Program-made: the position numbers and the translations under genes
Source of the DNA: Pontibacter cellulosilyticus
GTDB lineage: Bacteria; Bacteroidota; Bacteroidia; Cytophagales; Hymenobacteraceae
Reading direction: 5' to 3'
Assembly (NCBI RefSeq): GCF_014306105.1
Contig: NZ_JACRVF010000002.1
Span: 186,001-250,000, forward strand
Length of the DNA: 64,000 bases
Shown here: one piece after another, positions 17,227 to 45,686 of the stretch
Position numbering within the stretch: the stretch's first letter is position 1
Layout of the letters: each line of letters begins with the position of its first letter
Notes under the pieces: model-generated
Database searches by the model: none
The model's input: only the letters and a program-made list of their open reading frames with translations
What the model was told of the DNA's origin: nothing

Positions 17227-17499
17227 TTGTATATACCTGCCCTTTTGTTAAGATTATACTTTATGCTGCTAACAGAGTAATGGTACTGCAACTGCCTCAT
17301 TACTTATGTCTTAAGTAAAATTTTATTTTCGTAGTAGCCTTACTTTAGATAAATTTAATCGTGCTATTTTAATATATTTGCGCCCAATATTGTGAGGGGC
17401 AGATGTTCCTTAAAATATCCGGTAATTTTTTTCAGAGCCTTGCAACCCTTTGGCAACTAATAGAATCATAGGATTGAGTAAGGCATAAACAGGCAGCGT
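17227..17499 (+). other. Intergenic leader region upstream of the ECF sigma gene
   Basis: With the terminator before it, this gene-free stretch spans 335 bases. It is AT-rich and holds two promoter-like elements: a TATATTTG box (17373-17380) that fits a housekeeping -7 element without a clear -33 partner, and the ECF-type element at 17440-17468 described separately. No open reading frame of note or structured RNA was recognised. Confidence 0.5.
17440..17468 (+). promoter_or_regulatory. Candidate ECF-sigma promoter (autoregulatory) before the sigma gene
   Basis: TTGCAACC at 17440-17447, 15 bases, then GAATCA at 17463-17468, 32 bases before the sigma start. The AAC and TC cores and the spacing resemble ECF -35/-10 elements. 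The same left word and spacing with GGGTCA recur at 19820 and 21380 before lipoprotein genes. Confidence 0.55.
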
Positions 17500-18078
17500 T
17501 TGAATCTTTTTACAAAACCAAAATCCGAAGAGGACAAGCTTATAGAGGGGTGCATAGCGGGCAAGCGCGATATGCAGCGACTTCTCTATGATCTGTACTC
17601 TAAAAAGATGATGGCCGTTTGCCTGCGCTATGCCCCAACGAATTTTGAGGCAGAGGACATTATGCAGGAAGCATTTGTAAAAGTGTTTTCAAACCTGCAG
17701 AATTTTAAAAAGGACTGCCCACTGGAGTTCTGGATCAGGAAGATAATGGTGAATACGGCGCTGAAGCATTTGCGCAGCAAGCAACTGCTCACCGTGTCGC
17801 ATGAGAATGAAGAGGTTACAAACCTGCCTTCGGATGGTGTTAACCTGAGCGGCTACTCCCTAAATGAACTAATGGGTATGATCCAAAGTCTTGCCCCACG
17901 TTACCGGATGGTGTTTAACCTCTATGCCATAGAGGGGTACAACCACAAAGAGATTGGAGAGATGCTAGGCATCTCGGAAGGAACATCTAAGTCACAATAT
18001 TCACGCGCAAGGGCTATACTGCAAAGTATGCTTACGCGCCAGGAAAAACCATTTCAAGAGCATGTCATCATCGGATAG
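17500..18078 (+). CDS. ECF-type RNA polymerase sigma factor
   Basis: A 192-residue sigma-70-family ECF factor. Region 2 is YDLYSKKMMAVCLRYAPTNF with EDIMQEAFVKVFSNLQNFKK; region 4 is the helix-turn-helix YNHKEIGEMLGISEGTSKSQ with YSRARAIL. The start is a TTG at 17500; no in-frame ATG fits upstream, and the next Met is inside region 2. The following gene overlaps it by 17 bases and encodes a protein with a cytoplasmic head, one membrane helix and an outer-membrane barrel, so the pair looks like sigma plus its anti-sigma. A matching promoter element lies just upstream, implying autoregulation. Confidence 0.92.
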   Translation: MNLFTKPKSEEDKLIEGCIAGKRDMQRLLYDLYSKKMMAVCLRYAPTNFEAEDIMQEAFVKVFSNLQNFKKDCPLEFWIRKIMVNTALKHLRSKQLLTVSHENEEVTNLPSDGVNLSGYSLNELMGMIQSLAPRYRMVFNLYAIEGYNHKEIGEMLGISEGTSKSQYSRARAILQSMLTRQEKPFQEHVIIG

Positions 18079-19798
18079 AAAAGAATACGGAGAGCTGGAG
18101 CAAAGCATGTGGCAGCGCTTCCAGGATGCAGAAGCTCTGCCATCTTCTGATGTTTGGTCTCGGATAGATCATGAGCTTACACTGGAGGAAAGCAAGCACT
18201 ACAGAAGCCGGATGGTGCTGTATCGCCAATTGGCGGCAGCATGCTTTGTGCTGTTTATGCTGGCGGGTGCTTTACTCACCTACCATTATAAAACCGAAGC
18301 TACTATTGATGCTGGTATCGCCAATATGCAGCTTAACACCAGCACAGGTGTGGAAGAAATAGCAGTTACTGAACAGCCAAGTATAGCGCCACAGGCACAG
18401 GCCAGCTTTGAGACTAAACAAAATATAGCCACCGCTTCTGTAGCGGAAGCAAGCCAACCTCAGGCAGATGCAGCAATGCAGAAAAGAACAGGTATGGCAG
18501 GCGCAAGTGTAGTAGGTAAAGCTCAAGCTGCAGCTGCAGCTACAACAGGTACAGCTCCGATAGCTAAAGTACGTGCTCAAAAACTGGCTGGCATAGGAGT
18601 TGCCTCAGGAACTGCTAAGTATAATTTGAATAGTGCTGTGGCTGCTGCTACTGAAACATCTGCCACAGCCGAAGAACAAAGTATATTCAATACCTATAAG
18701 AGCGAAGAAAGTGGCAGTATGTCGGTTTCGTCCCGGTTTAATATAGGTCAATCGTTTTTCCAGACGGCGCGCCAGGCCATCACCTCTGTGCCTCCTTCCT
18801 ATACAAACAGCTCAGCTCAAAGTATAAATAACGAACCAGGCCGAAGTCGTTCTTTTGTAGAGCTTAGCCAGGCAGCCGTTGCAGATAATCTTAAAGAGCA
18901 GAAAAAGGCGGAGGAGTTAGCCATTGCGCTGAATACTCCGGCTCAAGCAGGTGAAAAAGAAGAAAAATCAAGTGGAGAAGACAGCCGTTGGTCTCTGGGC
19001 TTAGGGTATGCGCCTTCCTACTTCAACCAGAATATCCAAATGCCGGGGCAGATGATGGATGCTGTAGCACACCGTAGCCTGATTGCAGGTGGCCCTGACT
19101 TACTTTCCAGCTCTGCCGACAATATGAATGAGGCGCGCGAAGAATTTGAGGCAAACACAGACCCTGCATTCTCTTTTGCTGCTGAGGCAAAGGCTGGTTT
19201 CAACTTGTTTAAAAAGTTTAAGCTGTTAGCCGGGATAGGGTTTACGCAAAATTCAGCCAGAACAAAATCTAGCTATATTGTTAACCAGTTCCTGTATAAG
19301 CCAGGCAGCAACAAACGTGTAGAAATGCCAGGTACTACAGTTTTCCTGCCATCACTCAACAATAACTTTACCACAGACTCTCTAAGTGTGGAGAAGACTG
19401 ATGACTTCTATGTAAACTACCGCTACCGCCATATCACCTTGCCTGTAGGCCTTCAGTATGAAGGCAATGTTAGCAAAGACTGGTTCTGGTATGCATCAGC
19501 AGGTATGGCTGCCAACTTCTTAGTGGAAACAGCCGTGATGGCCTCAAACAGCGAGGTGCGAGATGTAAGCTATGATCATAACGATGACTCTCCTTTTCGT
19601 AAGGTGCAGTTTTCAGGCAATGCTTCGGTAGGTTTGGGGAAGCGTATATCTAATTTCATTTCGGTAACAGCCGGTCCTGAATTTAGAGGATACCTGAACT
19701 CGCTGCTGGCGGAGCCTGACAAAGCATTAGCGCCGCAGGGCAACCCATACACCATTGGCATCAACATGTCGGTTAACTACAGCTTGGGTAAAAAATAA
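18062..19798 (+). CDS. Predicted double-membrane-spanning anti-sigma factor with C-terminal beta-barrel
   Basis: A 578-residue protein of unusual layout. Residues 1-55 are hydrophilic (YGELEQSMWQRFQDAEALPS) and probably cytoplasmic; 56-75 form a single membrane helix (QLAAACFVLFMLAGALL); about 80-305 are an Ala/Gln/Ser/Thr-rich, low-complexity linker; from about 309 (WSLGLGYAPSYF) to the end run alternating strands of an outer-membrane beta-barrel, with LPVGLQYEG and GPEFRGYL. There is no cleavable signal peptide. Such proteins (Dma anti-sigma factors of Bacteroides) link the outer membrane directly to a cytoplasmic sigma. The 17-base overlap with the ECF sigma gene supports this role. The barrel type and the signal are unknown. 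Confidence 0.8.
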   Translation: MSSSDRKEYGELEQSMWQRFQDAEALPSSDVWSRIDHELTLEESKHYRSRMVLYRQLAAACFVLFMLAGALLTYHYKTEATIDAGIANMQLNTSTGVEEIAVTEQPSIAPQAQASFETKQNIATASVAEASQPQADAAMQKRTGMAGASVVGKAQAAAAATTGTAPIAKVRAQKLAGIGVASGTAKYNLNSAVAAATETSATAEEQSIFNTYKSEESGSMSVSSRFNIGQSFFQTARQAITSVPPSYTNSSAQSINNEPGRSRSFVELSQAAVADNLKEQKKAEELAIALNTPAQAGEKEEKSSGEDSRWSLGLGYAPSYFNQNIQMPGQMMDAVAHRSLIAGGPDLLSSSADNMNEAREEFEANTDPAFSFAAEAKAGFNLFKKFKLLAGIGFTQNSARTKSSYIVNQFLYKPGSNKRVEMPGTTVFLPSLNNNFTTDSLSVEKTDDFYVNYRYRHITLPVGLQYEGNVSKDWFWYASAGMAANFLVETAVMASNSEVRDVSYDHNDDSPFRKVQFSGNASVGLGKRISNFISVTAGPEFRGYLNSLLAEPDKALAPQGNPYTIGINMSVNYSLGKK

Positions 19799-19819
19799 AT
19801 TTATTTTTTCAGTGATGCC

Positions 19820-19848
19820 TTGCAACCATTGCCGGTGTAGTAGGGTCA
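19820..19848 (+). promoter_or_regulatory. Candidate ECF-sigma promoter before the first lipoprotein unit
   Basis: TTGCAACC (19820-19827), 15 bases, GGGTCA (19843-19848), 47 bases before the lipoprotein start. Identical words and spacing occur at 21380-21408; the flanking GATGCCT is shared as well. Confidence 0.6.
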
Positions 19849-19895
19849 TGAAAGTGTAGAAGGCGCCAATTAGTAGACTGCTAACCTCTAAAACT

Positions 19896-20324
19896 ATGAA
19901 GATAATACCTAGTAAGTATGCCCCTTTATGGGCAGTCGCTAAATCAAACCTATCCGGTTGGTATGTACTGTTGGCCCTTCTTTTTCTATCTCTTTTTATG
20001 TCAGGTTGCGAGAAAGGGGAGGAGATAACCGAGTGCTGGGAGCCGCAAGTTAACTGCAGCGTAGAGGTATCGGCAGAGCGTATCATGTGTGGCTATGGCG
20101 CCTTTAACAATGTGTGGCTAAAAACTGCTGATGGTGCATATCTGCAGCCCTGGTACAATTTAACCGAACAGAAAGAGCTTGTGCCTGGACAAAAGTATAA
20201 GATTGCCTTTAAGACAGTTGAAAGAGATGACAAGTATAAAGATGTTTTTTATTGTTTAGCAGCAGTTCCTGTATCAGAGGCTATAGTATTAACCTGCATT
20301 AGTCCGGCAATCAGCAATAATTAA
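19896..20324 (+). CDS. Cysteine-rich small lipoprotein A of the ECF locus
   Basis: A 142-residue predicted lipoprotein with a long N-terminus (about 38 residues) ending in the lipobox LSLFMSGC. The mature domain has five or more further cysteines: in EITECWEPQVNCS, ERIMCGYG, VFYCLA and VLTCIS. The order of features (C-rich start, CG turn, WLK strand, VPGQKYKI, terminal CIS) parallels the two lipoproteins at 20873 and 21461, so the three look like diverged paralogues with paired disulfides. A candidate ECF promoter lies just upstream and the next gene follows by 23 bases. No known family was recognised; location is probably the outer membrane. Confidence 0.75.
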   Translation: MKIIPSKYAPLWAVAKSNLSGWYVLLALLFLSLFMSGCEKGEEITECWEPQVNCSVEVSAERIMCGYGAFNNVWLKTADGAYLQPWYNLTEQKELVPGQKYKIAFKTVERDDKYKDVFYCLAAVPVSEAIVLTCISPAISNN

Positions 20325-20347
20325 TTACCTAGTGCCTTATCTAAGCT

Positions 20348-20800
20348 ATGAAAAAGACTACTTATGTAGTTTACCTGGGCTTTATTGCCCTTACCACCCT
20401 CACTGCTTGTTTTGAAGTGGAGGAACCTGCACCAAGCTTTGACGCTGAGAGCGTGAAAGCTTCTGTGCAGGGTAGGTGGGCTGTTGAGAAAGTAAGCAAC
20501 AAACTATGCAGAGACAACAGTTGCACATCCAATACAGTAGCGGGTACTCCGCAGGAATACTTTGAGTTCCGGGCTGACAGTGCCTATGTATTAAGAACAG
20601 GGGCAAGTATAAATGCTACTCTATGCGATGCCTATAAAGCAGAGTATGATCAAGGGGGAGTAATTTTACTTAGTAATGCCAGCCGTAAAGAACGCTTTAA
20701 AATAGTGGAGTTAAAGGCAAACAAAGCTGTGATGGAGAGTACTTTTACTGGCCGTGATCCAGCAGCTGTATTTACTGATACATACTATTTGTACAGGTAA
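20348..20800 (+). CDS. Lipocalin-like small lipoprotein of the ECF locus
   Basis: A 150-residue predicted lipoprotein with signal MKKTTYVVYLGFIALTTLTA and lipobox Cys at about 21. The mature part looks like a small beta-barrel of the lipocalin-like kind seen in Bacteroidota: VQGRWAVEKVSNKLC, EYFEFRADSAYVLRTG, GVILLSNASRKERFKIVEL and a closing DTYYLYR. Two cysteines in LCRDNSC and one in TLCDAYK could pair. It is unlike the other three lipoproteins here. It is 23 bases after lipoprotein A and probably shares its promoter. Ligand unknown. Confidence 0.72.
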   Translation: MKKTTYVVYLGFIALTTLTACFEVEEPAPSFDAESVKASVQGRWAVEKVSNKLCRDNSCTSNTVAGTPQEYFEFRADSAYVLRTGASINATLCDAYKAEYDQGGVILLSNASRKERFKIVELKANKAVMESTFTGRDPAAVFTDTYYLYR

Positions 20801-20872
20801 CTACCGGAGCTTGTAACATAGGGTGTGTGTTACTGATGCAACCTTTTAGAGCCGTTAGTACAAACTGAAACT

Positions 20873-21247
20873 GTGAAGAATGTTTTATCTGCTGTGTTGC
20901 TTTACCTGGGCTTATCAGTGCTGGTAATAAGCTGTTCTGAGGCAGAGCCTGAGCCTAACTGTATAGCAGCAGAAGTAATAGAAGCAGATTGCGGCAGTGG
21001 ATGGTATATCCTGAAACTGGAAGAGAAGCAGAGTTCCGATATACTGCCAGGAGGTAGTTATGTGGGGCAGTTGCAGGGCGGCTATGTTACAACTGATAAC
21101 CTGCCGCAGGCTTATAGGCAGCCTGGCCTGAAGTTGCGATTAGCACTAGAGATTAACGGCGAGTATAGTCCCCTTTGTGTAACCGTTGCCATTATGTACC
21201 AAGCAGTGAAAGTTAAGAACGTATGCGTGAGTTCTAGCGCAGATTAA
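20873..21247 (+). CDS. Cysteine-rich small lipoprotein B of the ECF locus
   Basis: A 124-residue predicted lipoprotein starting at a GTG (VKNVLSAVLLYLGLSVLVIS), with the lipobox Cys at about 21. The mature part has cysteines in EPNCIAAEV, EADCGSGW, SPLCVTVA and KNVCVSS. It aligns by eye with the product of 21461: same start (SE..., then a C-x-A-x-V segment), a YVTTDNLPQAYRQPGLKL segment matching YVVVNNLPDNLKQIGATF, and an ending MYQAVKVKNVC matching MYEAATIKNIC. It lies 72 bases after the lipocalin-like gene, with only a TGCAACC half-element upstream (20837-20843), so it may be read through from the first unit. Confidence 0.72.
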   Translation: MKNVLSAVLLYLGLSVLVISCSEAEPEPNCIAAEVIEADCGSGWYILKLEEKQSSDILPGGSYVGQLQGGYVTTDNLPQAYRQPGLKLRLALEINGEYSPLCVTVAIMYQAVKVKNVCVSSSAD

Positions 21248-21307
21248 TATACGAACCTTTATGATTTATACATAAATGTTGTTTTTTGATTAGGAAGAGA
21301 ACCCTCT

Positions 21308-21340
21308 TAAAAGCCTGCTGTTTTTCGGCAGGCTTTTTTC
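21308..21340 (+). terminator. Intrinsic terminator after lipoprotein B
   Basis: AAAAGCCTGC pairs with GCAGGCTTTT around TGTTTTTCG, then T residues, about 60 bases after the stop. It separates the first lipoprotein unit from lipoprotein C. Confidence 0.88.
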
Positions 21341-21379
21341 TTTGGCGACATATAAAATATAGAATATTTATGATGCCTC

Positions 21380-21408
21380 TTGCAACCATATTGCAAATGG
21401 TGGGGTCA
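21380..21408 (+). promoter_or_regulatory. Candidate ECF-sigma promoter before lipoprotein C
   Basis: TTGCAACC (21380-21387), 15 bases, GGGTCA (21403-21408), 52 bases before the ATG of lipoprotein C and just after a terminator. Same words and spacing as at 19820-19848. Confidence 0.6.
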
Positions 21409-21460
21409 ACTATATAGAAGCTGCTCAAAAGCGCAGCCGCAAAGTATAAACTGTGGCATT

Positions 21461-21832
21461 ATGAAAAACTTAGTACTCATTTTTGCTTTAATGCTGTTAG
21501 GCCCTCTTTTAACGGGATGCTCTGAAGAAGATGTGGCTGTTCCGTGTTTGCAGGCACGTGTGGTAGATGTGGCAGACCCATGCAGCGGCGAGATAGTGCT
21601 GGAACTGACAAAAGAAGACCAAAATTCCGGGAACGGTTTTTGCGGTACTGCAAACATCTATAAATATGTTGTGGTTAACAATCTACCAGATAATTTAAAG
21701 CAGATTGGCGCCACATTTACTTGCCAAATAGAAACGAGAGAAAGTGAAAGAGGCTGTATAGCTATATACCCAATGTATGAAGCTGCAACCATCAAAAATA
21801 TTTGCAATAGCAATCAGGTACTGCCCCGGTAG
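21461..21832 (+). CDS. Cysteine-rich small lipoprotein C of the ECF locus
   Basis: A 123-residue predicted lipoprotein: MKNLVLIFALMLLGPLLTGC is the signal and lipobox. The mature part has cysteines in AVPCLQARV, ADPCSGEIV, GFCGTAN, FTCQIE, RGCIAIY and KNICNSN, an even set that suggests disulfides. It is a paralogue of lipoprotein B (shared YxVVxNLP and MYEAATIKNIC segments). The ATG at 21461 is chosen; a longer in-frame start at 21380 is rejected because it coincides with the promoter element and lacks a signal peptide. It is a single-gene unit between its own promoter and a terminator. Function unknown. Confidence 0.75.
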   Translation: MKNLVLIFALMLLGPLLTGCSEEDVAVPCLQARVVDVADPCSGEIVLELTKEDQNSGNGFCGTANIYKYVVVNNLPDNLKQIGATFTCQIETRESERGCIAIYPMYEAATIKNICNSNQVLPR

Positions 21833-21887
21833 TGGCAGCAGGAAGAAATAAAGTTAGACATATAGTTTTCTGCACATTTACTACCGT

Positions 21888-21921
21888 GAAGCCTGCCGAT
21901 TTTCGGCAGGCTTCTTTTGTT
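21888..21921 (+). terminator. Intrinsic terminator after lipoprotein C
   Basis: GAAGCCTGCCGA pairs perfectly with TCGGCAGGCTTC over a 3-base loop, then TTTTGTT. Confidence 0.9.
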
Positions 21922-45092: not shown

Positions 45093-45686
45093 ATGAGCGA
45101 GCAAACAGGTAAACAGCTGAGTAAAGAGGAAAAAGACGCTAGGTTCGAGGCCGAGCTTCTGCCGGTGCTGGACCCTCTGTACAACTTTGCCTACAGGCTC
45201 ACCCTAGACGAAGACGACGCTAATGACCTTGTGCAGGAGACCTACCTGAAAGCCTATCGTTTTTTTGACTACTTCGAACAAGGAACTAATGCAAAAGCAT
45301 GGCTGTTCCGAATCCTGAAGAACTCATTCATAAACGAGTTTCGGAAAAAGAGCAAGCAACCTGCCAAAGTAGATTATAGCGAAGTTGAGGGGTATTATAA
45401 CTCCGAAGACGTTGAAGGTGAGGGTGGGGTAGCTTCTACTACCGATATGCGCACCGAAAGTGTGCAGGATCTAATAGGAGATGAAGTAGCCAGTGCCTTA
45501 AATGCCTTGCCAGTCGACTTTAGGACAGTAATTATACTTTGTGATTTAGAAGGCTTTACTTATGAGGAAATGGCCAAGATACTGGACATTCCGATAGGTA
45601 CTGTAAGATCGAGGTTGCACCGTGCCCGGAACTCTTTGAAGGAGAAGTTGGAAAAATATGCCAAAACAATGGGTTATAACAGTTAG
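45093..45686 (+). CDS. ECF sigma factor (RpoE/SigW-like)
   Basis: A 197-residue ECF sigma factor. Region 2: DPLYNFAYRLTLDEDDANDL then VQETYLKAYRFFDYFEQGTN with AKAWLFRILKNSFINEFRKK. Region 4: ALPVDFRTVIILCDLEGFTY, EEMAKILDIPIGTVRSRLHR. The ATG at 45093 is used; a TTG lies just before it. It is followed 26 bases later by a zinc-finger anti-sigma gene and then gmk and nadD, all on one strand, so sigma and anti-sigma are co-expressed. This pair is of the common soluble ZAS type, unlike the barrel-fused pair at 17.5 kb. Confidence 0.95.
   Translation: MSEQTGKQLSKEEKDARFEAELLPVLDPLYNFAYRLTLDEDDANDLVQETYLKAYRFFDYFEQGTNAKAWLFRILKNSFINEFRKKSKQPAKVDYSEVEGYYNSEDVEGEGGVASTTDMRTESVQDLIGDEVASALNALPVDFRTVIILCDLEGFTYEEMAKILDIPIGTVRSRLHRARNSLKEKLEKYAKTMGYNS

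Follow-up and report, generated by a model that had tools for sequence, protein, structure and literature searches.

A Dma-like protein, its extracytoplasmic function sigma factor and a predicted dispersed lipoprotein regulon in Pontibacter

How might a bacterium relay the state of its outer membrane to the transcription machinery, and which genes would answer? The question is raised by a locus of Pontibacter cellulosilyticus, which lies in a stretch of 64,000 nucleotides (hereafter the window; positions 186,001 to 250,000 of contig NZ_JACRVF010000002.1) of a 4.6 Mb Pontibacter genome. On the + strand, the locus encodes an extracytoplasmic function (ECF) sigma factor, a Dma-like protein of 578 amino acids and four small lipoproteins. 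Its layout and conservation were determined here by computation, as were the promoter code and the genes targeted. The locus is a well-supported member of the Dma/ECF group, its promoter has been decoded, and its regulon is wider than a preliminary description of the locus had supposed. It likely represents an autoregulated switch that leads from the outer membrane to the sigma factor and governs dispersed lipoproteins, probably located at the cell surface. The first description of Dma anti-sigma factors reportedly dates from 2024 and concerns a single gut species; no account of the Dma promoter code or of Dma regulons outside Bacteroides was found in the literature searchable here.

The sigma factor and the Dma-like protein

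The sigma factor gene (17500..18078, 192 amino acids, TTG start) encodes Sigma70_r2 and Sigma70_r4_2 domains (Pfam; PF04542, PF08281), and among the matches listed, the generic sigma70-ECF profile TIGR02937 was the only one above its cut-off. It overlaps by 17 bases the gene of the Dma-like protein (18062..19798), as had been described. The Dma-like protein is predicted to consist of a cytoplasmic head presumed to bind the sigma factor (residues 1–52, 18062..18217), a transmembrane helix (residues 53–76, 18218..18289), a tether (residues 77–304, 18290..18973) and an eight-stranded outer-membrane barrel (residues 305–578, 18974..19795), and matches OMP_b-brl_2 (PF13568) over residues 354–526 with an E-value of 3e-8. 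In the AlphaFold model, which was built on 42 sequences, a short helical head is followed by a helix of residues 29–82 that encloses the transmembrane segment, the predicted local distance difference test score (pLDDT) is < 50 across residues 80–262, and eight long strands occupy residues 310–574 with pLDDT mostly > 85. The structural neighbours of the barrel (Foldseek/VIA) are eight-stranded barrels, including NspA, OprF and OmpA (VIA Z 17.0, 16.1 and 15.7, respectively; 2.3–3.0 Å). Hydropathy, the Pfam match, the model and the VIA neighbours thus bear out the cytoplasmic head, single membrane helix and C-terminal barrel of the preliminary description, and the structure prediction that it had proposed as a check yielded both the barrel and a helix containing the transmembrane segment. 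The linker, put at 225 residues of low complexity, measures 228 residues from the transmembrane segment to the barrel; it is rich in Ala, Ser, Thr and Gln and mostly disordered (to about residue 262). The barrel may adopt an OmpA-type orientation, with its ends in the periplasm and its long loops facing outward, as the tether needs.

Across 34 orthologs, identity to the window protein is about 56% for the head and barrel and averages 15.6% for residues 77–262 of the tether. The tether length ranges from 194 to 231 residues (standard deviation 9), and a variable sequence with a constrained length is the pattern expected of a tether that needs length, not sequence. The head carries the conserved motif F..R..DAE..P...WxRIdxxL, in which W32 is invariant and E24, P27 and I35 are nearly so among the 42 sequences; these four positions recur in the sigma-adjacent partners of distant Bacteroidota, some of which have no barrel. 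Every one of the 50 Pontibacter genomes searched has the Dma-like protein, as do 62 of 100 genomes from other genera of the family, and the Dma gene adjoins the sigma gene in 38 of the 38 Pontibacter/Botryobacter loci examined. An outer-membrane barrel, a single helix after a short head, a disordered tether and an adjacent ECF sigma factor are traits of the Dma family, and the window protein has all of them.

Orthologs of the sigma factor in 37 Pontibacter/Botryobacter loci are 78–93% identical. The 80 relatives returned by the search all come from Bacteroidota wherever the record names a group; most adjoin a partner with a head and a transmembrane helix, and about half of the distant partners are of barrel length. 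Judged by these relatives, the sigma factor shares the ECF21 trait of occurring in Bacteroidota only and with a Dma-type partner.

Dma1 and Dma2 of Bacteroides thetaiotaomicron are anti-sigma factors of the same domain plan, and their deletion activates the cognate sigma factor (PMC13088901). From this analogy, we infer that the head binds and sequesters the sigma factor and that the barrel senses the outer membrane. The 578-residue protein would span both membranes, with its barrel in the outer and its helix in the inner membrane; the disordered, length-constrained tether would bridge the periplasm, and the N-terminal head would keep the sigma factor inactive in the cytoplasm. The barrel would report the state of the outer membrane, and a change of that state would free the sigma factor, with ligand binding, failed barrel assembly and cleavage of the exposed tether as alternative candidates for the trigger. 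The freed sigma factor, rather than a paralog, would then transcribe all of the TTGCAACC-N17-RTCAT promoters, its own included, which would create positive feedback. Its targets would comprise lipoproteins 1–4 and at least two further genes of the genome, to which sister species would add serpin and potempin-A-like inhibitors.

The bipartite promoter motif and the predicted regulon beyond the locus

The motif TTGCAACC-N17-RTCAT/A occurs three times in the locus. The predicted ECF-type autoregulatory promoter (17440..17469, TTGCAACC-N17-ATCAT) lies 60 nt 5' of the sigma start codon, the promoter predicted for lipoproteins 1–3 (19820..19849) reads TTGCAACC-N17-GTCAT, and that predicted for lipoprotein 4 (21380..21409) reads TTGCAACC-N17-GTCAA, its orthologous sites at L001 and L002 having the full GTCAT. 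The nearly identical promoter-like words noted earlier stand at 19820 and 21380 and are joined by a third at 17440, but the word at 20837, upstream of lipoprotein 3, has the first half only. A lone intergenic TAnnTTTG word (17373..17380) is a weak candidate for a housekeeping (sigma-A) promoter that might provide basal sigma expression, about one such match being expected by chance in this region; a scan for the sigma-70 consensus gave matches no more often than chance, as expected for Bacteroidota.

Upstream of the sigma gene, TGCAACN-N17-RTC is found in 28 of 37 orthologous loci, and the remaining loci retain TGCAAC with a variable second half, so that the first half is present in all 37. 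Downstream of the Dma gene, 33 of the 37 loci have an equivalent site versus 0.0045 expected per region under a Markov model. Both the GGAATCAT and GGGTCAT forms are common to the sigma factor's own promoter and the adjacent lipoproteins genus-wide. Beyond the genus, the motif is present at spacing 17 in 13 of 39 loci of distant sigma orthologs versus 0.03 expected, and all other spacings from 13 to 21 gave two matches altogether; the same −35 core and spacing occur upstream of sigma relatives in other Bacteroidota orders. In the 41 Pontibacter genomes, the strict TTGCAACC-N17-RTCAT pattern occurs 58 times versus five times for the reversed pattern, and with spacers of 18–20 the excess is gone (18 occurrences versus 16 in the control). 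These regulon counts derive from pattern searches. Motif-like matches within coding sequence (L160–L162) and N16/N18 matches (L084, L093) were treated as background.

Elsewhere in the genome of the window, two lipoprotein genes with the motif upstream lie at C1:1190923 and at C6:687439; a weaker form precedes the gene of a GIN-domain (DUF2807) lipoprotein at C1:1490569. Genus-wide, an open reading frame (ORF) with a lipobox lies 28–160 nt downstream of 14 of the 19 off-locus sites, versus none of 18 sites with a wrong spacer (Fisher p 2.4e-6). The off-locus targets span about nine families, and the excess is thus independent of any single gene. The preliminary description had called the system self-contained and its lipoproteins private; both terms have to be abandoned because the same bipartite promoter stands 5' of further lipoprotein genes, both in other parts of this genome and in sister genomes. 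Its central proposal, that a Dma-type sigma/anti-sigma pair is encoded next to lipoprotein genes with a promoter motif in common, is supported by the domain plan, the fold and the motif. The lipoprotein L085 was rejected as a conserved target, being present in just two of 41 genomes.

Four of the off-locus targets are serpins (PF00079, E-value 9e-119). A targeted search detected serpin lipoproteins in 21 of 41 Pontibacter genomes (L222–L242), one in each and with divergent N-termini, and TGCAACN-N17-RTC lies upstream of all 21 genes, its halves invariant and its spacer diverged. Two off-locus sites lie upstream of a lipoprotein of sister species (L148) that matches potempin A of Tannerella (8b2n/8b2m) with an E-value of 3.5e-4. 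A further relative, L246, matches the same inhibitor with an E-value of 2.2e-7 and also has the motif upstream. Both are potempin-A-like by sequence similarity, and the motif precedes three of the four potempin-A-like genes in sister species. The targeted search found no serpin in the window's own genome, and a relative of L148 was likewise not found there.

On the − strand of the window (25054–24940), TGCAACC-N17-ATCTT is followed after about 60 nt by a 16-codon ORF (MKFLVLFLLLPGAGTG) that resembles a lipoprotein gene cut short after its start. This may be the remnant of a regulon member, and it lies upstream of a fasciclin-like gene.

The lipoproteins and their possible role

Lipoprotein 1 (19896..20324, 142 amino acids, Cys38) has an acidic CEKGEE start, lipoprotein 2 (20348..20800, 150 amino acids, Cys21) has homologs in many Pontibacter loci, lipoprotein 3 (20873..21247, 124 amino acids, Cys21) has a GTG start, and lipoprotein 4 (21461..21832, 123 amino acids, Cys20) is a paralog of lipoprotein 3 with 31% identity. 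Each of the four ORFs has a lipobox. A predicted intrinsic terminator (21309..21337) ends the first unit and a second terminator is predicted 3' of lipoprotein 4 (21888..21914), which agrees with the two units described earlier. None of the four matches a Pfam or NCBIfam family. All four carry two or three acidic residues at positions +2 to +6, similar to the surface-export signal of Bacteroidetes lipoproteins (PMC5080379), and this resemblance makes a surface location likely.

Lipoprotein 3 is the most conserved partner (35 of 38 loci) and is predicted to form a five-strand barrel like the oligonucleotide/oligosaccharide-binding (OB) fold (pLDDT 78). Among solved structures, the model comes closest to potempins, CusF/SilF and a NigD-like protein (4pqx), with Z values of only 5–6. 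Potempins A, C and D are among the best VIA rows, at Z 5.1–5.9, which is within the common OB-fold background; the top potempin match (Z 5.9, 4.3 Å over 80 residues) is weak. The lipoprotein 3 family has no match among PDB sequences, and in view of this and the low Z values, membership of the potempins or of NigD is not claimed for it. Lipoproteins 3 and 4 were rejected as NigD proteins after no Pfam NigD match was found in 29 family members at E-values up to 1. A search of PDB sequences with lipoprotein 1 returned nothing convincing, and the lipoprotein 3 family profile matches lipoprotein 1 and L148 only weakly. At L012, L014 and L017, short ORFs of about 62 amino acids lie about 2.3 kb downstream of where the sigma gene starts and retain only the signal-peptide region of lipoprotein 1 (GWYVLLAL..SGC), which suggests decay of this gene in part of the genus.

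As for what the induced lipoproteins do, a plausible reading is general outer-membrane and lipoprotein homeostasis as for Dma1, in which an unassembled barrel would free the sigma factor and the lipoproteins would remodel the membrane or promote vesicles in the manner of NigD1. The architecture is the same as that of Dma1 and Dma2, whose loss leads to hypervesiculation, with nigD1 needed in the dma1 case (PMC13088901), and the NigD-like 4pqx is among the weak neighbours of lipoprotein 3. However, NigD_C has no match in the window's genome, and neither does NigD in the lipoprotein 3 family; a role confined to remodelling would also not account for the serpins.

The serpins are accommodated by another reading, anti-protease defence, which is put forward tentatively. 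The system would respond to an attack of proteases on the cell envelope. Damage to the barrel or to the tether, which is exposed, would serve as the signal, and proteases at the surface would be inhibited by the lipoproteins produced in response, namely serpins, potempin-A-like proteins and perhaps the OB-fold lipoproteins 3 and 4. The serpin and potempin-A-like genes behind the motif are consistent with this idea, as are the potempin neighbours of the lipoprotein 3 model; the serpin miropin and the potempins, which are small lipoproteins, are known protease inhibitors from Tannerella (PMC7296668). Other targets, namely the GIN lipoprotein, a lipocalin-like protein and a protein with a type IX secretion system tail, are not inhibitors, and the structural match of lipoprotein 3 stays at background level. 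Because the window's genome lacks both serpin and potempin-like genes, it is only possible, and short of probable, that a Dma-type switch commands an anti-protease shield in Pontibacter, and perhaps in wider Bacteroidota, from one promoter conserved across much of the phylum. The link to serpins and potempin-like proteins provides a new and concrete hypothesis on the threat that such a switch might counter. The strict TTGCAACC-N17-RTCAT promoter should make Dma regulons predictable from sequence.

Some findings weigh against the switch and the regulon proposed here. The serpin sites outside the locus are orthologs of one another and represent a single family, although the off-locus set as a whole covers about nine, the exact motif is present in only 13 of the 39 distant loci, and the genome encodes four paralogs of the sigma factor (36–46% identity) that may share promoters with it, one of which, at C6:296076, has TGCAACC-N16-GTCTT upstream. 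With one of four paralogs preceded by a similar site (spacer 16), some cross-recognition is kept in play. That a paralog reads the lipoprotein promoters and the sigma–Dma pair controls itself alone is improbable, for although paralogs of 44–46% identity have a similar region 4, the other three paralog genes have no comparable N17 site upstream and the sigma promoter shares its site, in both forms, with the adjacent lipoproteins throughout the genus.

Comparison with known systems and further observations

The switch proposed here resembles several envelope-signalling systems in part. It is likened by domain plan to Dma1/Das1 and Dma2/Das2 of B. thetaiotaomicron, pairs of a dual membrane-spanning anti-sigma factor and an ECF21 sigma factor, which likewise combine a head, a transmembrane helix, a long disordered tether and a C-terminal barrel with an adjacent ECF sigma factor (PMC13088901). 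It differs from them in genus and family and in a regulon of lipoproteins behind TTGCAACC-N17-RTCAT, including inhibitors in sister species. When Bacteroides Dma1 was sought through NigD loci, only three NigD genomes were found, and no das-dma-nigD locus was recognised in them. RseA/sigma-E systems comprise an inner-membrane anti-sigma factor, an autoregulated ECF sigma factor and envelope targets, all of which have counterparts here; unlike in those systems, a single chain would reach the outer membrane, and the locus encodes no separate sensor of the DegS or RseB type. FecR/FecI regulation works with TonB-dependent transducers and, as proposed here, relays the state of the outer membrane to an ECF sigma factor. 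In contrast, the Pontibacter locus has no TonB-dependent receptor, and its barrel is eight-stranded and fused to the putative anti-sigma factor. The sister-species members of the regulon belong to or resemble the potempins and miropin of Tannerella forsythia. Potempins are each encoded beside the protease that they inhibit (PMC7296668), whereas the Pontibacter inhibitor genes lie scattered and have an ECF promoter in common.

The arrangement of sigma, Dma and lipoprotein genes is flanked by DUF1232 and uvrB genes and kept in most of the genus. A second, more remote ECF sigma gene (28% identity) lies within the window at 45210–45665 on the + strand. Three more ECF sigma genes of the same genome have neighbours of related type. 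At L096 (G000:C9:369622), the partner with a head and a transmembrane helix is a Dma-like protein of 493 amino acids with a weak barrel match (E-value 2.6e-5); at L095 (G000:C1:588342), the partner has 291 amino acids and no barrel; and at L097 (G000:C8:203089), a lipoprotein gene lies between the sigma gene and a head-like gene. The Chitinophagaceae-type sigma genes L058, L061, L062, L064, L067 and L069 have a variant of the same promoter, CGCAACG/GCAAC-N17-GTCTT, at −66 to −72, and their partners carry several repeated head-like segments ahead of the transmembrane helix.

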